Shown here in pieces: positions 8,715 to 18,773 of a DNA stretch of 46,618 bases. This DNA is from Endomicrobium sp. GTDB taxonomy: Bacteria; Elusimicrobiota; Endomicrobiia; Endomicrobiales; Endomicrobiaceae. Location of the stretch: assembly GCA_031272265.1 (NCBI GenBank), contig JAISUD010000025.1, positions 1 to 46,618 of the forward strand, written 5' to 3'. The translations under genes were made by a program, and so were the position numbers. The first letter of the stretch is position 1; every line of letters begins with the position of its first letter. The notes beneath the pieces are model-generated. The model was given only the letters and a program-made list of their open reading frames with translations, did not search any database and was not told the origin of the DNA.

Positions 8715-9038
8715 ATTTTGATAATTAAGTGCTGTTTGAGATTTAGATTTTAAAATGTGGAGAATGCCGTTTGGCGGATAAAAACACATTTTTATTTGAG
8801 TTTTGGCAAACTGTATCAAAAAAGATATATCTCTGCGACTGTGACGGCGGAAATTACCGGCGATACTCTTTGCAAAATTAGGCATACGAATTCTCTGAGG
8901 TATGACTTTCTTTTGTCTTACCCTGTTTCCTGCTCCTGCAAAAATTATCAATTATCCGTCTTTGATTCGTTTAAATCTTGAGTATTTCTTCTGTTTTCAT
9001 TTGGTAGTCGTATAATTATTTCCTACATTTACGACTCT
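8715..9038. other. Intergenic stretch without a supported gene
   Basis: Both strands have open stretches of 70-85 codons (about 8757-8981 plus, 8691-8951 minus) but neither has a ribosome site or recognisable composition, and they overlap each other. Possibly a decayed gene; nothing can be named. Confidence 0.35.
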
Positions 9039-10282
9039 CTACCCGCCTTTATTTAGTCTATATTCAAGAAGTGTCTTTCCCGTACAATTGACTATTATAT
9101 TTACAAAAGCGTTTTTTAATGTGCACACAGTGGATCGGACTTGAAATGTATTCTCTTCATTTGTGTCTTTAGAGCATTCTGAGATTAGTTGTAGACCTTT
9201 TATGATCTCTGCTTCACATTTTTCAATCTTCATTTCTATCTCATTCGGAGGAGTATTGCTTACTTGTTTTTCTATATCTTTTAGATCATGTTTATGGGAT
9301 TTAATGCGACTCTTATATTTTCATCACTTATAAGGAAATGCTTGGGTTCTTTTCCAATTTTTAGAGCGCGGTTTCTTTATAATATGTTGTTCAGTATATT
9401 TACTTCGTTTTCAATTGTTTTTAGTCTTTTTAATGTGACTTCTAGGAGTTTATTAAAGTTATCTTTTTTTGGATTTGTAGTAGTAGTATATTATTCCTAA
9501 TATTGCTGCAAGAACATTAATTGACTACTTTGCTTTCTAGTTCTTTGATTTTGGATTCTAATTTATTGGTTCGCTGACGGTCTTTGATTATTGTTTAACT
9601 TATTATTCTCCAGTCTGAATCTCTTTTGTTTGTGTCTCTGGTTACTTCGTTACGATTTCTATCTCATTTTGTTGACTTTGACTTCTAGCTCGCCAACTTT
9701 TTTGTTATTTCGCTTTATTTTGTCTAATTGTTGAGTATTATTATACCTGATAATTGTGATTCCTAATGACTCCTCTTCCTGCTTGGTCATTGTTAATTGT
9801 TTTTCATTGATTCCAACTGGTTCTTTGACGATTCAACTAAAATAAAATCAATGTGATTGTGATTTTTTCATTTTGCTATTCCATTTGTTTTAGTAATTTC
9901 TATTTCTGTGTATCCACTTTCAATATTTAAATATATTTAGATAATTTTTGCAAACCGCTTTATTATACTTATAAATTTTGCATTTCATTCTTAATATTTC
10001 TAAGTTCCCTCATCAGTGTGTTCAGCAACACAGTCTCTATTGACGCTCTTGTTTTGGCTTTGTTGGCTATTTTTGTATAGTCGTTGGTTCTGATTCCTAA
10101 GTGTTGGATTTTATAAATCATAGATTATCCCGTTTCGGTCTCATCAGAGAAAGACATTTTATTGTTTAATCTATCTATGTGTGTGTTTTGTTTTGATTTA
10201 TCTTTGCTAAATAGCCATTGTTTACAGTTTCTTCTTAGACTATTATTTTCAGTTTGTAGTCTTTCAATAATTCTGTTAACAT
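9039..10282 (-). pseudogene. Heavily decayed coiled-coil protein gene
   Basis: Reading the minus strand downwards, TAGGAGAAAA and an ATG (10282) start a short frame. After a frame change it continues as ERLQTENNSLRRN...MSFSDETETG, reaches an in-frame TAA, and goes on in the same frame through a clean 50-codon stretch (10121-9969, ending RELRNIKNEMQNL). Further pieces in shifting frames read QLDKIKRNNKKVGELEVKV (about 9710-9650) and LLEVTLKRLKTIENEVNIL (about 9440-9385). The last open frame runs from about 9320 to the stop at 9039 (contains KIEKCEAEIIKGLQLI). All pieces are charged, Leu/Ile-periodic and coiled-coil-like, so one gene of about 400 codons with many frameshifts and stops is the simplest reading. 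The family is unknown. Confidence 0.5.
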
Positions 10283-10498
10283 TTCATTTCTTTTCTCCTA
10301 AGTTATATGCAATACGCAGACTTATAGACTTATAATTGATGTTACATAAGTTCCCTGTTTTATGGTCTAAGAGAAAAAATATCAGTTCTAAATTTATGAT
10401 GTGATTAAATCATTTCACCCCCCATATTAGTTAAAATAATATTTATGATATTATACTGTTATGATTTTTCATTTTACTTTTTAACATTTTTTTATAAA
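10283..10498. other. Intergenic AT-rich stretch
   Basis: No reading frame with a start site was found. It contains the ribosome-site-like TAGGAG on the minus strand that belongs to the decayed gene below it, and otherwise only AT-rich sequence. Confidence 0.3.
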
Positions 10499-10516
10499 AG
10501 TTTACAATATTTCAAA
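10499..10516. repeat. 18-bp direct repeat, copy 1
   Basis: AGTTTACAATATTTCAAA is found here and again at 11319-11336. The copies lie 206 and 202 bases beyond the 3' ends of the first and second exported-protein genes. They mark a duplicated unit of about 820 bases that includes the genes. Confidence 0.7.
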
Positions 10517-10721
10517 GTAAAAAACCAACACTTTGTCCACTCCTCTCTCTGAAAATTATTGCACTTGTTTCTTCGCAATTCATTTTTATTATTGCTAATT
10601 TAAATACCATTGATATTTACATTTAACTCCACAGAAGTGCTTTTCTATTTTTTGCTGTTGTGAAATATGAGCCCTCTTTGGTGTAGTCTATTAGCGGGAA
10701 TAATAATACTAATATGATTTT

Positions 10722-11027
10722 TTATAATTTTTTTATGATTTTATCGTAGATTGTCGTTCCTAGAAAAACTATAAATGCTAATATTCCCGTATGACAATAT
10801 ATGGCATCTGTAGAGTTTGTTGCTGCTCCTACAATTGTTAGTAATGCAAATATAGTGCCCATTACTAATACACTCTCTACTGCTTGTTCTTTGTTTATTA
10901 TTGATTCTACTTGTTTTGCTGACGATACTCCTCCGGCCTTTTGTTCGTATACTTCTACCTCAGCTTTGCAATATGTTGTTACTCCCAACAGTAATAAAGC
11001 ACTTAAAGCAATTGAAAACTTTTTCAT
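10722..11027 (-). CDS. Small exported membrane protein, tandem family member 1
   Basis: A 101-residue protein with an N-terminal signal sequence (MKKFSIALSALLLLGVTTYC) almost identical in plan to those of the two upstream neighbours. Next comes a 35-residue polar segment, then two hydrophobic helices (about residues 52-68 and 79-95) ending in a lysine-rich tail (DKIIKKL). Cys20 sits where a lipoprotein would be lipidated, but Tyr at -1 makes lipidation doubtful in this copy. AAAGGAAG lies 7 bases before the ATG. It has its own promoter and a conserved leader. No known family is recognised. The family shares the signal peptide and architecture but little sequence in the mature part. Confidence 0.7.
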   Translation of the reverse strand: MKKFSIALSALLLLGVTTYCKAEVEVYEQKAGGVSSAKQVESIINKEQAVESVLVMGTIFALLTIVGAATNSTDAIYCHTGILAFIVFLGTTIYDKIIKKL

Positions 11028-11101
11028 TTTATCTTCCTTTTACTCAATTTATTTGTTAATTTATTAATTTTACACCCGCAAAACCGCTTCACTTAGTTTT
11101 T

Positions 11102-11136
11102 ATATTCTTAAAAGTCTTAGCTCTTTTGCAACTTCT
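11102..11136 (-). promoter_or_regulatory. Conserved 5' leader block of family member 1
   Basis: This 35-base block of the untranslated leader matches the block of member 2 (11946-11980) at 33 of 35 positions and that of member 3 (12475-12508) at about 27 of 35 with one gap. On the transcript it begins AGAAGTTGCAAAAGAG. It lies about 8 to 42 bases after the predicted transcription start and well before the ribosome site, so it is not explained by coding or promoter function. Confidence 0.6.
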
Positions 11137-11150
11137 GAGGTACAATCACA

Positions 11151-11179
11151 GTTATATTTATTTTTTTACTTTTTGTCAA
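11151..11179 (-). promoter_or_regulatory. Strong sigma-70 promoter of family member 1
   Basis: TTGACA (11179-11174) and TATAAC (11156-11151) are separated by exactly 17 bases on the minus strand, near consensus. The predicted leader is about 117 bases. A near-palindrome (ATCTTGATATTAAGAT, 11198-11183) lies just upstream and may be an operator. Confidence 0.75.
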
Positions 11180-11318
11180 GTTATCTTAATATCAAGATTT
11201 TTGACTATAACGAACGTTTGACTGTTTTGCATCTTCTTAATTGAAATAGTATTAATTAATGCTACATGATTTTCTTTATTTTAATTTTTCCTATTTTTGG
11301 GTGTTAACTATTGTGAGT

Positions 11319-11336
11319 AGTTTACAATATTTCAAA
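11319..11336. repeat. 18-bp direct repeat, copy 2
   Basis: Exact copy of AGTTTACAATATTTCAAA (copy 1 at 10499-10516). The sequence just upstream of it on the minus strand is also recognisably related between the copies (GTGCAA followed by an AGAGA-containing run), supporting segmental duplication rather than chance. Confidence 0.7.
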
Positions 11337-11537
11337 ACGAAAATCCACTTATTATTTTACTTTCTCTTTAAAATTTGCACGACTTCTTTTTGCTGTTCGT
11401 TTTTAAGTCTTTGAGCATATTTCATCTTTTATTCATTTTGGTTTTACTTTCTTATTATTTTCACTGGTAATTGTTAAACTGTTTTTTTTGTTTTGTACAT
11501 TCTATCAACGGAATAAAATTAGTGCTGTACGATTTTT

Positions 11538-11861
11538 TTACCATTTTCTGAAGATTTCAGGAGCTAATTTTCCAATTATAAGTGTAGATGCTATTATTTT
11601 TATACAGTTATTTATAGTTTGTATTTCTGCATTTGTTGTCGCTACTGCGAATAATGCCAATAATAATGCGCCGCTTCCGAGCATTAAATTTATTTTTCCT
11701 TCGCTTAACGTTGTTTTGCTTGTTGATATTGTTAATCGGTTGACTTGTTCTTCTCCATTTGTTAGTTTATTAGGCTTGCGAAAAGGTAGTTTAAGAGGCG
11801 TACAAGATGTGGTTATTCCTAGTAGTAATAAGATACTCAAAACAATTGAAACCTTTTTCAT
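11538..11861 (-). CDS. Small exported protein (probable lipoprotein), tandem family member 2
   Basis: A 107-residue protein with signal peptide MKKVSIVLSILLLLGITTSC and a usable lipobox (TTSC, Cys20). A basic and polar linker follows (residues 21-52), then the segment TLSEGKINLML, a hydrophobic helix (about 59-75), a short polar turn and a second helix (about 83-98) ending in FRKW. AAAAGGAAG lies 7 bases before the ATG. The segment LSEG followed by a hydrophobic helix and a Lys/Trp end is shared with member 3 (LSEGQTSL...IIKEW), while the linker is unrelated. It has its own promoter and leader block. The function is unknown. A cell-envelope location is inferred from the signal peptide. Confidence 0.72.
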   Translation of the reverse strand: MKKVSIVLSILLLLGITTSCTPLKLPFRKPNKLTNGEEQVNRLTISTSKTTLSEGKINLMLGSGALLLALFAVATTNAEIQTINNCIKIIASTLIIGKLAPEIFRKW

Positions 11862-11945
11862 TTTGTCTTCCTTTTGTTCGCATTACGCGTTAATCTTTAA
11901 ATTCGCTAATTTTGCATTAGCACTATACGTCGCTGTAGTAGATTT

Positions 11946-11980
11946 ATATTCTTAAAAATCTTATCTCTTTTGCAACTTCT
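11946..11980 (-). promoter_or_regulatory. Conserved 5' leader block of family member 2
   Basis: It differs from the member 1 block at only two of 35 positions, although the surrounding leader sequence is clearly diverged. This suggests selection on the RNA (or a recent exchange) rather than simple shared descent. Confidence 0.6.
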
Positions 11981-12012
11981 ACTACTATGCTCTTTAGTTA
12001 TAAGTTGTGTTA

Positions 12013-12040
12013 ATCGTATTTATTTTTTACTTTTTGTCAA
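12013..12040 (-). promoter_or_regulatory. Promoter of family member 2
   Basis: TTGACA (12040-12035) is followed after 16 bases by TACGAT (12018-12013) on the minus strand. The -35 and the A-rich spacer start are identical to those of members 1 and 3. The predicted leader is about 145 bases. Confidence 0.6.
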
Positions 12041-12103
12041 AATTATTTTATATTAAGATTTTTAACTATAAATAGTAATTTAATTAATACTGTTATAATT
12101 TTT

Positions 12104-12388
12104 TTACCATTCTTTGATGATTCCATTGACTGCCTGTCCTGCTAGAAGCGTCCACGCTATTATTCCCATCCAGTTACTTATAAATTGTGTATCTTTGCAG
12201 CATTTTACAAGTATTGTTCCCACAAGCAGAGCTGTTGCTACTGTTAAACTCGTTTGTCCTTCGCTTAACATTTCCCATTTTTGTTTTTTTTCTTCTTCAG
12301 GTTGAGAAGATATAATCGTAGGAGTTTTGGAACATGCTGCTATTCCTAGTAGTAATAAAACACTCAAAACAATTGAAATCTTTTTCAT
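12104..12388 (-). CDS. Small exported lipoprotein, tandem family member 3
   Basis: A 94-residue protein with signal peptide MKKISIVLSVLLLLGIAAC and a good lipobox (IAAC, Cys19). A short Glu/Lys-rich linker is followed by LSEGQTSLTVATALLVGTIL (first helix), a CC-containing turn (KCCKDTQ) and a second helix (WMGIIAWTLLAGQAVNG) ending IIKEW. AAAAGGAAAATC precedes the ATG. It is the first of the three in the direction of transcription and has the best promoter and the best lipobox, so it may be the least altered copy. The two helices after a lipid anchor suggest a protein held in the inner membrane. No family is recognised. Confidence 0.75.
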   Translation of the reverse strand: MKKISIVLSVLLLLGIAACSKTPTIISSQPEEEKKQKWEMLSEGQTSLTVATALLVGTILVKCCKDTQFISNWMGIIAWTLLAGQAVNGIIKEW

Positions 12389-12474
12389 TTGATTTTCCTT
12401 TTAATTGATTATAAATTAATTTTTAGTTCAGTGCCCTTGCTATTGACAACATAATTTCGTTAACAATAAGTTTT

Positions 12475-12508
12475 GTGTTCTTGAAATTTTAGTTCTTTTA
12501 CACCTTCT
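12475..12508 (-). promoter_or_regulatory. Conserved 5' leader block of family member 3
   Basis: The third, more diverged copy of the leader block shared with members 1 and 2. It aligns with one gap and keeps the AGAAG start, the AAAAGA centre and the AAGAA end. Confidence 0.5.
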
Positions 12509-12535
12509 AAGACAGTTCCGTATTTTTGATTAATT

Positions 12536-12564
12536 ATTATATTTGTTTTTTTACTTTTTGTCAA
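12536..12564 (-). promoter_or_regulatory. Consensus sigma-70 promoter of family member 3
   Basis: TTGACA (12564-12559), a 17-base spacer and TATAAT (12541-12536) on the minus strand give both hexamers and the spacing at consensus. The predicted leader to the ATG is about 141 bases. Confidence 0.8.
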
Positions 12565-14696: not shown

Positions 14697-15588
14697 CTAA
14701 TTCATTGATAAAAAAAGCGGTAGTTGATTGAATTCTTCAGTATCTACCGCTACTGAACTTATTAATTTAAAATCTTTGTCTCTAATAGTTCTTATTTGTC
14801 CAAAATATATGGATACAAAACAATTATTAATTTTTGTCTGTTTTGCATTTTCCGTATTCTTGACAGCGATCTTTACGTACTCTTCGTCTTGCTCTATACC
14901 GATATATTTTCTTCCTAGTTTGTTTGCAGCTACGGCTGTTGTCCCTGTTCCTATAAATGGATCAAGCACAATATCATCCTCGTCGCTGGTCATTAAAATT
15001 AATCTTTCTAAAAGCGGGATGGGAAGCTGGCATGGATGGTTGTCTCTTCTTTTCTTATGCGGGTATGTCGTTCCAAACATCGGAAACTAAAGGCCCAAAA
15101 CTGTGTGCTTGTACTTTCTTGCCTCCGTAATCTTTTAAAAACTCTTTACAGGCTCTACACTTAAGATGCGGCGCTCGTATATCAAAAAATTTGAAATCTT
15201 TATGTGATATAGACTTCGTGTAATACAAAATTCCGTAGTGAGTGGGTAATAGCGTTTTACCAAGAGGTGCTCCACCTGAATCCCAAGCGATCCAATGCTT
15301 AAAATACGCAATTTTGTTCAAATATTCTGCAAAATAAGAAAGCCAATGAGGTATATTGTGAATGAAAATTGCTCCTGAGAATTTTGTAACTCTTACCATT
15401 TCGCCAAGCCATTTATTACACCAATTTAAGTAATCTGATTTTTCTTTTGAATCTTCGTAATGATTGTATTTTTTCTTTAAATTAAAAGGTGGATCTGCGA
15501 AAGTTATGTCAATGGAATTGTCAGGTATTTGCTTTAGCACTTTTAAACAGTCTCCGTTAATAATATTGTTTAAAAATTTGTTTAACAT
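14697..15588 (-). pseudogene. Frameshifted type II DNA methyltransferase
   Basis: Two adjacent frames encode one beta-class (DPPF-first) DNA N4/N6 methyltransferase of about 295 residues. The first (15588-15055) has the catalytic motif ADPPFNL (motif IV), MVRVTKFSGAIFI and KHWIAWDSGG, and runs to VWNDIPA-stop. The second (open before 15080) resumes with HKKRRDNHPCQLP, a segment that normally follows VWxDI directly, and contains the SAM motif DPFIGTGTTAVAAN and KYIGIEQDEEYV. The junction is around 15060-15070 and has no long homopolymer (CATACCCGCATAAG), so a one-base indel is the likely cause. Both halves keep their motifs, implying a recent break. It follows a broken restriction endonuclease by 2 bases. 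Confidence 0.8.
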
Positions 15589-15590
15589 AG

Positions 15591-16311
15591 TTATTTGTTA
15601 TTAATAATATTTTTTAGTAGTTTTTCAAATCTATTCAATTCGTCTTTATGGAAGGTGAAAACATCTTCATAAGCTGCAACCATTCTTTTTAAATCATTTT
15701 TGCGAACATACCAGTCGATACCGTCAACAAATCCTATGAATTTAGCTTGTGGGTAATACGACTTAATAAGAGCGTCAATAGAAATCTCAGTTTTAGATTT
15801 ATCTCCCTGTCCTGACGAAGTCGTTGCCAAAAAAGAACTCTCAACGATAATTAATGGATTTTTCTTATTAGGAATTATAAAATCCATTGTTCTTTTGTTG
15901 AATGGAGTATTTTTAATCAGTTCGGTTAGATCGCCTTTTTCAAAGCTTATTTCAAGACGACTAAGGATTTCTTCAATCAGAATCTCCGGATTATTTTCTT
16001 TTTTTCCAGAATAACTGCCTTTTTCTTTATATCGTATGAGAGTGTCTATCATTTCGTGCAGTTCAAATTTTAATTTTGATATGCTTAGTTTTTTTAAGCT
16101 CAAATAATGGAATAATCTCTGTTAGAAATGGGACTGTTGAACCTTCAAAAAAGATGTTCACGATAGCTTTTCTGAAAAATTTGTTTTCTTTAATAAGTTT
16201 GTGGATTTTAAGAGTAGGCCATTCTTCTAAATTGTCTGCTTTTTCGTCGTTGGCCCATTTATTGGTGAAAAATGATAAATGGTTATTTGTTGTATTTCTT
16301 GAAATAATTGT
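15591..16311 (-). pseudogene. Frameshifted type II restriction endonuclease (DpnII-like)
   Basis: The main frame (from TTG 16103) encodes 170 residues with a PD-(D/E)xK-like core: MDFIIPNKKNPLIIVESSF followed by SGQGDKSKTEISI and GFVDGIDWYV. An upstream frame (16311 to about 16096, contains WANDEKADNLEEWPTLKIHK and FFEGSTVPFLTEIIPLFELKK) joins it exactly at a run of seven A (plus strand T7, 16089-16095). One gene of about 235 codons with a slippage frameshift is the natural reading. The upstream piece has no ATG, GTG or TTG and overlaps the end of the neighbouring endonuclease. The resemblance to DpnII-family enzymes is from motif order and is tentative. Its partner methylase is also frameshifted. 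Confidence 0.6.
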
Positions 16312-17059
16312 CTATTTCATCTCTCAATTCAATACCGACTTTTTCAAAACACTCTAATAAATCGTTATATGTGTTTTTGCCGCTTAAAAAATCCCAGAAC
16401 TCTTCAGCTATTTTTAGTTCATTTTCAATATCAAGCATTCCAGCTATTGTCCATCTGTCATAAGGCCTTGGAGCATAAGGATTATAAGGAATTGCTATCA
16501 ATGTGTTAATTTTAGCTTTTGGATTTTGTGCAAATATCGTTGCTACCCATTCCAGTAAAGTTCTTTTGAATTCTTTAAATCCGCCTTTATTAGGTTTTGC
16601 TGTTTTTAAATCAAAAAGAAATTTTTCTCCGTCAGATTTTTCAAGAAAAATATCTACTTTTGTAAGTTTGACTTTATGCATCTTACCTCTCTGAGATGCT
16701 TCCCTAATTCTTTCTATTTCATCTTTTTTATTGGGTTTGATATTTGCTGCAGATATATTATCAATAATATTTTGGATTTCCCTTTGAGCACCTTCGCTTA
16801 TTTCGCTTCCCACGTTTACTTGTTTTTTTGTTACATTAAAATTAGATTTTGCAAGTTCAAGAGCAATGGGCTCAAATATTGTAGTTCCAAAGTTTGTATT
16901 TAAAGAATGTATAAAAGAAAACAACGCTATCCTGTCTTTACCGAGCAATCTTGTATGAAACGGCATTGCGGCAGGTTCTGGTTTGTAATTGTCAAATTTA
17001 GTTCTAAGGCTTTTCTTTAAAATTTCTTTTATTTCAAATTTATAATTGTTATTTAGCAT
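16283..17059 (-). CDS. Type II restriction endonuclease, TdeIII-like
   Basis: A 258-residue cytoplasmic endonuclease. It begins with a helical domain containing MPFHTRLLGKDRIALFSFIH and TIFEPIALELAKSNF. It then has a PD-(D/E)xK-like core, KVDIFLEKSDGEKFLFDLKT, with the acidic residues and DLK in place, followed by NTLIAIPYNPYAPRPYDRW and a helical tail. This order matches the TdeIII family as I know it. Family enzymes act on GGNCC-type sites, but specificity here is inferred only. The frame is intact. The companion methylase lies 100 bases upstream on the same strand. The ribosome site is weak (AAAGATTAAATAAA). The end overlaps the broken endonuclease remnant. Confidence 0.72.
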   Translation of the reverse strand: MLNNNYKFEIKEILKKSLRTKFDNYKPEPAAMPFHTRLLGKDRIALFSFIHSLNTNFGTTIFEPIALELAKSNFNVTKKQVNVGSEISEGAQREIQNIIDNISAANIKPNKKDEIERIREASQRGKMHKVKLTKVDIFLEKSDGEKFLFDLKTAKPNKGGFKEFKRTLLEWVATIFAQNPKAKINTLIAIPYNPYAPRPYDRWTIAGMLDIENELKIAEEFWDFLSGKNTYNDLLECFEKVGIELRDEIDNYFKKYNK

Positions 17060-17159
17060 TTTATTTAATCTTTAAGTGTGTACCAGATAATTTTTTTGTG
17101 AACAGACCTATTCTTTAATCTAAAGGTATAGAAAGTTTTATAGCCTTATAAACAACATT

Positions 17160-18752
17160 TTAATTTTCTCTTAAATGAAAAATTGTTTCTGAATATGCGC
17201 CTTTGTCTTTTTCTGTGCGGTTAAGCACAGGTCGTTTAAAAGCGTTTACTATTTTCATTTTTGCTTTTTGCGCTATTTTAGGATATAGATTGTATTTATC
17301 GTTTGCTACAAGAAAGACGTTATAATTACTTTTTAAATATTTTTTGCAATTGTTTAACACTCTTGCTATGTCTTCTAAGTAATTTGTTTTAGCTTTTTTA
17401 CCTTGCCCTTTAAACAGCGGACCGATTTCAAATTCGTCGTTTCTTTTAAAGCCAAATATGTCGTAAGCGTAAGCGTGCTGCTCGTGGTAATCTATGAGAC
17501 CCACGTAGGGCGGACTTGAAAATATACCTGAAATCTTTTTTTCGTTTAATATATCCGCAAAAAGTTTATTCTTCTTGGAAAGCGCGTAGTCAATATCAAT
17601 TGTTCTTGAATCCCCTGTTAGACAATACTGGTAAGTATTTGTTTTTAATTTTGAAAAATCTTTTAGCCTTGCAATTGTGTCTTTTGAGTATGTTTTCCAC
17701 CATTTTACGATTGAAAATATAGGTTTACATATTTTCCCGTGCTTGGGACAATAATAAGTCTCCGATATAGGTTTTATGAGCGTCGCTAAATCAGAATGCG
17801 TAGTCGCCCTGCAGGAGCGCATAGCGCGGCTAAGGATTAAAACTAATATATTTTTATTGTTTAAGTCTTTTATTTTTTTTATTTCCTCAAAGATAAAGTT
17901 TATTTCATTAATAATATTTTTGAAATACCATTTATCTGTAAATGTTGCGGGATTGTTTTTAAACAGTTCCGCCTCGTATTTTGCCGTCAAATTTTTATAA
18001 ATAACCGAAAATTGCTTTTCTTTTTCTTGCCCGTAAGAATTTTCGTCTATGAGACTACATTTAATTTTACGCTTGAAATCGGGAACGGGAAAATATTTAT
18101 CATTAAAGTCTTTGAGTTTTTTAATCAGAATCTGCTCAAACTCAATGTTTTCTGCAAATTGGGAATTTGTAAGCAATTTTCCCGTGATATTTTTTATTTC
18201 TTTTTCCAACGAAATAACATCGTATGTGTTTATCTTGCAATTTGCAATAAAAGAGTTAAAAGCTGAAATATCTATTCCTATTGCGTTTATGCCGAGTTCG
18301 TTTGCTTGAGCGAGCGTTGTTCCGCTACCACAGAAAGGATCTAACACTATGTCTTCTTTTTTAAAAAACGTTTCTTTTTTAAGCTCATCAGTATGGCCAT
18401 CCAAAAAGTATTCAACGAGCTGAGGTATAAATTTGCCTTTGTAAGGGTGCAGTCTATGGATATGTTTTGTCGTATCCGATTCTTTTAAATTGTCAAATGA
18501 CAATTTCCAGTTTAAATCTTCGCCGAGTTTTTCTTTCCACGCGGTTTCTTTTGATTTATTTATGAAATTGTAATATTTTTCAAGGTCTGATTTTGATATT
18601 TGTGATGAGCCATTACTTCCGATTCTACGGATATGTCCATACTGGATAAGATAAGAAATATTTGAAGTTGTTATTTCTTTACCTAAATAATTAGAAGCCC
18701 ATAGGCTGGCTTCTTTGATAGTTAAGCACTTTGAAGCTGTTTTTTTTTGCAT
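17160..18752 (-). CDS. DNA methyltransferase (SPPY type) with N-terminal helix-turn-helix
   Basis: A protein of about 530 residues. The first 65 residues look like an excisionase-type helix-turn-helix (TIKEASLWASNYLG...YGHIRRIG). Next come HRLHPYKGKFIPQLVEYFL and the SAM motif VLDPFCGSGTTLAQANELG (about residue 145). The catalytic SPPYVGLIDYHEQHAYAY lies near 415, and KYLKSNYNVFLVANDKY follows. SPPY suggests N4-cytosine methylation. The order, SAM motif before the catalytic motif, differs from the beta-type enzyme next door. ATG 18752 is followed by CAAAAAAAAACA (nine A), a slippage-prone run within the first four codons. A TTG at 18773 in frame is an alternative start; neither has a clear ribosome site. 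It is presumably cognate to the TdeIII-like endonuclease. Confidence 0.8.
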   Translation of the reverse strand: MQKKTASKCLTIKEASLWASNYLGKEITTSNISYLIQYGHIRRIGSNGSSQISKSDLEKYYNFINKSKETAWKEKLGEDLNWKLSFDNLKESDTTKHIHRLHPYKGKFIPQLVEYFLDGHTDELKKETFFKKEDIVLDPFCGSGTTLAQANELGINAIGIDISAFNSFIANCKINTYDVISLEKEIKNITGKLLTNSQFAENIEFEQILIKKLKDFNDKYFPVPDFKRKIKCSLIDENSYGQEKEKQFSVIYKNLTAKYEAELFKNNPATFTDKWYFKNIINEINFIFEEIKKIKDLNNKNILVLILSRAMRSCRATTHSDLATLIKPISETYYCPKHGKICKPIFSIVKWWKTYSKDTIARLKDFSKLKTNTYQYCLTGDSRTIDIDYALSKKNKLFADILNEKKISGIFSSPPYVGLIDYHEQHAYAYDIFGFKRNDEFEIGPLFKGQGKKAKTNYLEDIARVLNNCKKYLKSNYNVFLVANDKYNLYPKIAQKAKMKIVNAFKRPVLNRTEKDKGAYSETIFHLREN

Positions 18753-18773
18753 AGAATAATTTGAAAAATTCAA

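Follow-up and report, generated by a model that had tools for sequence, protein, structure and literature searches.

We describe three consecutive minus-strand genes, P1, P2 and P3, in a 46,618-nucleotide contig of Endomicrobium sp. (JAISUD010000025.1, whose whole stretch we call the window). Their promoter, leader and signal peptide appear to be held constant, and the mature protein sequence would change almost without constraint, provided that the frame stays open and the product hydrophobic. Our favoured reading, held tentatively and at somewhat less than an even chance, is that these genes encode tandemly duplicated small exported inner-membrane proteins diversifying in conflict, likely in part the exclusion cargo of mobile elements, in arrays that expand and decay. 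Still more cautiously, we propose that the genus has an undescribed repertoire of inner-membrane proteins with constant signal and variable body, of which the trio would be a new branch with two helices. Small plasmids and phage-like elements would spread this repertoire, which would expand separately in each species and take part in an arms race between elements or between symbiont and host. The window, contig C8, belongs to a draft genome of 698,591 bases in 30 contigs with completeness rated 60.5%. Comparison of aroB places it closest, among named species, to Candidatus Endomicrobiellum mastotermitis, E. agilis and E. glyptotermitis, all endosymbionts of termite-gut flagellates.

All three open reading frames (ORFs) are intact: P1 at 10722..11027 (101 amino acids), P2 at 11538..11861 (107 amino acids) and P3 at 12104..12388 (94 amino acids), all on the minus strand. 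The pattern MKKxSIxLSxLLLLG is invariant across their signal peptides, as the sequence-only reading of this DNA had it. Each protein continues through a linker, polar in P3, and two hydrophobic stretches to the basic or Trp ends noticed earlier (IIKKL in P1, IFRKW in P2 and IIKEW in P3). The two stretches, previously called helices, are found in each mature part at a cut-off of 1.3 and are weaker at 1.4. With respect to the lipobox pattern [LVI][ASTVI][GAS]C, P3 fits strictly (IAAC), P2 is marginal (TTSC) and P1 has no lipobox (TTYCKA). It is safe to predict that all three proteins are exported, while within the trio P3 only is likely to be a lipoprotein. P3 is also the only one with a Cys-Cys pair after the first hydrophobic stretch; a charged tail is present in none. 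AlphaFold modelling of P1 (with P2 and P3) gave two helices, at residues 39-69 and 73-98, but with a predicted local distance difference test score of 54 and a predicted template modelling score of 0.28. In the topology predicted for the proteins the helices come after a short linker in the periplasm, which speaks for a place in the inner membrane and not at the cell surface. The similarity within the trio exceeds chance in blastn comparisons within the locus (E = 2e-26 over 272 nt for P1/P2, 1e-17 for P2/P3 and 5e-16 for P1/P3).

The claim that each gene has its own TTGACA promoter and a similar untranslated leader was borne out, with 10-12 of 12 positions matching the consensus. The P3 promoter (12536..12564, minus strand) is perfect, TTGACA-17-TATAAT; that of P1 (11151..11179, minus) reads TTGACA-17-TATAAC with 11/12 matches, and that of P2 (12013..12040, minus) TTGACA-16-TACGAT with 10/12. 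The promoters stand 152-179 nt upstream of the ATG, and only 0.4% of shuffled upstream sequences reached 11/12. The leaders are 120-145 nt long and pairwise identical at 58-72% of positions versus a shuffled baseline of 47%. The leader of P3 (12389..12535, minus; about 140 nt) is given with an inferred transcription start, that of P2 (11862..12012, minus) has 72% identity to the P1 leader in pairwise alignment, and the leader of P1 (11028..11150, minus) holds an element, GAAGTTGCAAAAGAG..TTTTAAGAATATAAA, common to P2 (95% over 38 nt). The three genes are probably expressed. We saw no clear antisense promoter in the three leaders, where promoter-like sites occur near the shuffled expectation.

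Divergence is concentrated behind the signal peptide. Between P1 and P2 nucleotide identity is 72% in the leader, 80% in the signal and 50% in the mature part, with 47% as the shuffled baseline; the mature parts of these two genes have lost detectable nucleotide similarity. The earlier description of unrelated linkers and poorly conserved helices holds for P1, the mature part of which is near-unrelated to those of P2 and P3, but not for P2 and P3, which still align, their homology reaching the 3′ ends (97 nt, 70%). Ratios of nonsynonymous to synonymous substitutions (dN/dS, by the Nei-Gojobori method) were taken from saturated paralogues and serve as indications, for signal and mature parts alike. 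The signal value is ∼0.17 for P1-P2 and P1-P3, from ∼10 synonymous sites and small counts. Mature dN is 0.60-1.01 versus dS of 0.73-0.85, the alignment being uncertain, with ratios of about 0.7-1.4 among the pairs under the same uncertainty. Thus dN/dS is not near 1 over the whole ORF, the signal being conserved, and P1-P3 contain no stops. Under neutral drift the probability that all three frames stay open is about 5e-4 at 0.2 substitutions per site per lineage and 6e-6 at 0.4, and it falls further if both helices must survive. As three open frames are improbable under neutral drift, the frames look maintained and the residues nearly free.

Searches of P1-P3 against Pfam, NCBIfam, PHROGs, PADLOC, PDB and Rfam gave sub-threshold matches only, to signal peptides or hydrophobic stretches. 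There was no convincing match among viral contigs, bacterial genome contigs, phages and plasmids (the latter two searched by tblastn), nor among 294 other genomes of the phylum; five other phylum genomes were matched, mostly by signal peptides. No homologues were detectable among the plasmid proteins of E. trichonymphae. By these searches the three proteins are members of no known family, in agreement with the earlier claim, and published Endomicrobiellum genome analyses, as far as they are searchable, do not mention lipoproteins. The trio had been put forward as the best candidate for an undescribed system; undescribed it is, but it is not isolated, since it sits in an array of a lipoprotein family that has many such arrays across the genome.

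This larger family was found via weak P3 matches elsewhere in the source genome. Its members, which we call the FQLIGC family, start with 'MRKIAIVLILFQLIGCAKQP...' (also read as 'MRKIAIVLVLFQLIGCAKQP...') and follow the signal pattern M(K/R)(K/R)IAIxLILFQLIGC (alignment A2). The layout is a lipobox signal, a linker rich in Pro, Glu and Lys, one membrane helix, often Cys-Cys with basic residues, and a variable charged tail. A 14-member profile had 41 matches at E ≤ 0.01 in the source genome, P3 included at 4.6e-6, and a single match, in E. agilis, among 41 other Endomicrobiellum genomes. Beside the trio the source genome has in total about 40 further family genes or remnants, and many of these copies are cut short or contain stops. 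Aligned with the family signal, P3 shows a 3-residue insertion, and it reaches 67% probability over 30 columns in hhalign; P1 and P2 are not among the profile matches. The family trait of one membrane helix followed by Cys-Cys or basic residues and a charged tail is not seen in P1-P3, and the arrangement in arrays with the family leader and a helicase 5′ fragment is seen at their locus. We therefore treat P1-P3 as a putative private subfamily residing in the same loci, with its own leader and two hydrophobic stretches, and not as proven FQLIGC homologues.

The seemingly empty DNA around the trio was compared by blastn with other arrays of the source genome, and remnants (all on the minus strand) were found there. 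Between P2 and P1, at 11254..11440 (E = 2e-14 and 1e-10), a truncated helicase 5′ piece (11365-11440) is followed by what is left of a decayed FQLIGC gene, its leader and its start (11254-11403), which match C6:1358-1584. Below P1 the remnant at 10425..10670 includes a family leader (10501-10670; 73% to C6:1499-1677, E = 1e-20) and, by short weak matches, a possible decayed FQLIGC start (10425-10452). Further along, at 9833..9899, a decayed family start (KKITITLILF*L) is matched by the starts of intact members in C6, C11 and C29. A possible decayed tail (..KTLLEYRLNKGG) at 9039..9320 shows motif likeness only and is not significant by phmmer. At 8870..9043 a UvrD/PcrA-like helicase gene is represented by its truncated 5′ end, which recurs as a dispersed repeat in many of the genome's arrays. 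Given the decayed FQLIGC leaders and starts around them, P1-P3 occupy the same loci as the larger family. A 'KxxLEYR' C-terminal domain common to the FQLIGC family was suggestive by eye; it was not significant by phmmer, the motif is a common one, and we did not use it as proof. The 5′ end of this second UvrD/PcrA-like gene is found in at least six other contigs, some copies being 95-100% identical (C6:1770-1964, C11:508-691, C3:22365-22511, C22:53701-53805, C21:1-108 and C27:1-330). The regular helicase (740 amino acids) is intact on contig C13, and only the 5′ end of the second gene is multiplied.

Array matches crowd at contig ends, as would be the case if repeats of this kind break the assembly: 15 of the 48 ends examined have an array-type match no more than 1.5 kb away, and 20 of 44 array matches fall in these terminal regions, which make up ∼13% of the sequence. 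Gene loss is the expectation for reduced genomes of intracellular symbionts, but about 40 copies or remnants of one exported family lie within the 0.7 Mb of this one, and E. agilis has a comparable set of its own. If our reading is right, this would be a rapidly diversifying envelope repertoire, linked to plasmids in E. trichonymphae, in a phylum for which we found no such repertoire described, and the arrays would help to explain where these draft genomes break and rearrange.

For comparison we sampled parts of other genomes, with a small outgroup control (83 kb) from outside Endomicrobiellum. The lipobox scan yielded 33 ORFs for E. agilis (364 kb), six for the chromosome of E. trichonymphae (400 kb) and none for the small 83-kb sample, which comes from another genus of the same family. 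In the FQLIGC family of the source genome median identity is 69% in the signal and 29% in the mature part, with a membrane helix in 11/14 members. The corresponding values are 53% and 24% for 29 E. agilis sequences (22% when shuffled; helix in 23/29) and 50% and 23% for E. trichonymphae (helix in 8/16); the shuffled mature baseline across the three families is about 0.23. As read from these identities, E. agilis and E. trichonymphae have their own families with constant signal and variable body. Other Endomicrobiellum species without detected matches exist.

The link to plasmids comes from E. trichonymphae, the small plasmids of which (pTGRD1-3 and pRSTT2-3) are made up mainly of such lipoprotein genes, all annotated as hypothetical, mostly together with a Rep of about 420 amino acids. 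Lipoprotein ORFs number 17 in the 44 kb of plasmids and Rep-flanking stretches, against four in 389 kb of the remaining sampled chromosome. These plasmid proteins resemble ours in genus, signal peptide, lipobox, polar or Pro-rich linker, frequent membrane helix and variable body; they differ in belonging to other signal sequence families and in being carried by Rep-bearing plasmids, whereas no Rep was found in the source genome. Rep relatives adjoin lipoprotein genes in genomes G001 (E. agilis), G116, G128 and G074. On G001:C23 a microvirus-like replication gene (1736-2200; PF23343 REP_ORF2-G2P, E = 1e-6) lies between a plasmid-type Rep and lipoprotein genes, with chromosomal genes on either side, an arrangement that we read as a hybrid integrated element. 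In G074, contigs C33 and C71 carry a phage terminase large subunit (Terminase_3) along with a plasmid-type Rep and are possible phage-plasmids of Endomicrobiellum.

Under the reading that we favour, arrays would have been multiplied by duplication in the source symbiont, and members would keep arising, diverging and decaying. The proteins would be exported by Sec, their N-terminus then being lipid-anchored, as we suppose for P3 and the FQLIGC family, or free in the periplasm; the helices of P1-P3 would cross the inner membrane, and the FQLIGC tails would lie in the cytoplasm. That the proteins act in conflict at the inner membrane is the weakest and most inferred step. Most likely plasmid or phage-plasmid elements would carry them as cargo and with them block the entry or action of competing elements in an exclusion-like way; the variable part would set specificity, and old versions would be left to decay. 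Small membrane lipoproteins of the EexN, TrbK, Cor and Ltp types, encoded by plasmids or phages, serve plasmid entry exclusion or phage superinfection exclusion. Similarity to them was confined to sub-threshold matches (EexN to P3 with E = 0.19; Cor to an E. trichonymphae plasmid protein with E = 0.024 over 20 residues), and there is no significant homology. They also differ in number, usually one or two genes per element, while the E. trichonymphae plasmids consist mostly of such genes, and these plasmids are typed as non-mobilizable.

Several observations weigh against this interpretation. With high dS and an uncertain mature alignment, positive selection cannot be told from relaxed selection by a dN/dS close to 1. 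Of the trio only P3 scores against the FQLIGC family, its match is confined to the signal, where convergence is easy, and P1 has no lipobox. No known exclusion protein is detectably related to P1-P3. Rep was not found in the source genome by single-sequence and profile searches (in a genome ∼60% complete), and most E. agilis arrays in the sampled part are not near a Rep.

A role at the host interface, suggested by the sequence-only reading for what it called fast-changing envelope proteins, seems unlikely to us, though it deserves serious weight. Fast-changing envelope proteins with a constant signal and a diverging mature part are supported; a host interface would fit less well with the predicted topology, which points to the inner membrane. 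In such a role the proteins would be exposed to the cytoplasm of the flagellate or pass into it, and interaction with the host would drive their diversification, as in Borrelia plasmid lipoproteins or phytoplasma effectors. Consistent with it, the families occur in obligate intracellular symbionts, two repertoires are expanded and species-specific, the plasmid location is like that of Borrelia cp32 (PMC12018966), and the related genome from outside Endomicrobiellum had no lipobox ORF in its small 83-kb sample. However, in most members a helix follows 25-60 residues past the anchor, usually succeeded by Cys and basic residues, which would put the tail into the symbiont cytoplasm. No secretion system is linked to these proteins, protists have no adaptive immunity to escape, and there are same-genus species without detected matches. 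The nearest known analogues come from Borrelia and phytoplasmas. Borrelia Elp proteins have common leader peptides and unrelated mature parts (PMC12018966). The Endomicrobiellum families share this property with the Elp, Erp and Mlp proteins in kind and not by homology: the latter are surface lipoproteins without a transmembrane helix, whereas P1-P3 and most of their relatives carry helices, and the Borrelia proteins come from another phylum with no sequence relation found. Their plasmid or prophage encoding has a parallel in E. trichonymphae but not in this window (flanks aroQ and trmH, no Rep found). Phytoplasma effectors, in turn, are secreted by an intracellular bacterium, largely species-specific, fast evolving and tied to mobile units (PMC3633829), and are defined by a signal peptide without a further transmembrane domain (PMC3633829); P1-P3 have such domains, helices are the rule in the Endomicrobiellum proteins, and the tests made gave no homology. 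We rank the exclusion role slightly above one at the host interface because of topology and plasmid location.

Less probable again is that the arrays have no organismal function and are recombination-prone debris of mobile elements under relaxed selection, with P1-P3 as the youngest unbroken copies. The many truncated or stop-bearing members, the helicase fragments recurring among arrays, the matches close to 15 of 48 contig ends and the mature dN/dS near 1 agree with it, and for many broken copies it is partly true. It fits poorly with three open frames at the observed divergence, with the retained signal peptide and near-consensus promoters, and with a dN/dS of about 0.3-0.6 among close paralogues in the larger FQLIGC family. 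Membrane-active toxins, either bacteriocin-like peptides or toxins of type I toxin-antitoxin systems, would also be small hydrophobic products of tandem genes with long leaders and strong promoters; signal peptides and a length of 94-107 amino acids are, however, atypical of type I toxins, Rfam gave no match, the leaders have no clear antisense promoter, and no immunity gene or exporter stands beside P1-P3, so that we find this explanation improbable. Most improbable of all is that P1-P3 are pilin paralogues of the VirB2/TrbC kind, belonging to a type IV secretion system. Bartonella trwL and Anaplasma virB2 do occur as tandem divergent copies encoding a signal peptide and two membrane helices, which gives a likeness in gross topology and tandem divergence. 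But P1-P3 have a linker longer than that of VirB2, no VirB2/TrbC profile of Pfam or NCBIfam matched them at E ≤ 1, PDB gave no match either, and no gene of such a secretion system is present among the window ORFs as read.

The P1-P3 locus is flanked by aroQ and trmH, and no plasmid or prophage location is evident for the window. The genes that come after aroQ in E. mastotermitis, E. glyptotermitis and others are a cold-shock gene, pepQ, efp, accB and accC; in the source genome the P array takes their place. The cspA-pepQ-efp-acc block is found on contig C15 (41122-44162), where it runs into an array that lies at the end of this contig. The broken aroQ/cspA junction thus has arrays on both sides. 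In several Endomicrobiellum genomes (G080, G052, G084, G005 and G031) aroQ is broken by stop codons, which suggests that the shikimate pathway may have been lost there. At the left end of the window, positions 93-168 are a 97% match to C23:7697-7772, adjoining a family gene on that contig; this end may lie in or near another array. Zheng et al. (2016, cited in PMC11257099) are said to have described restriction-modification systems as mobile elements in such symbionts. At 14697-18773 of the window, between folK and aroB, there is a restriction-modification-type island with a methyltransferase split into two overlapping ORFs, a further methyltransferase and companion ORFs; in G092, G114 and G110 folK adjoins aroB with no such island between them.

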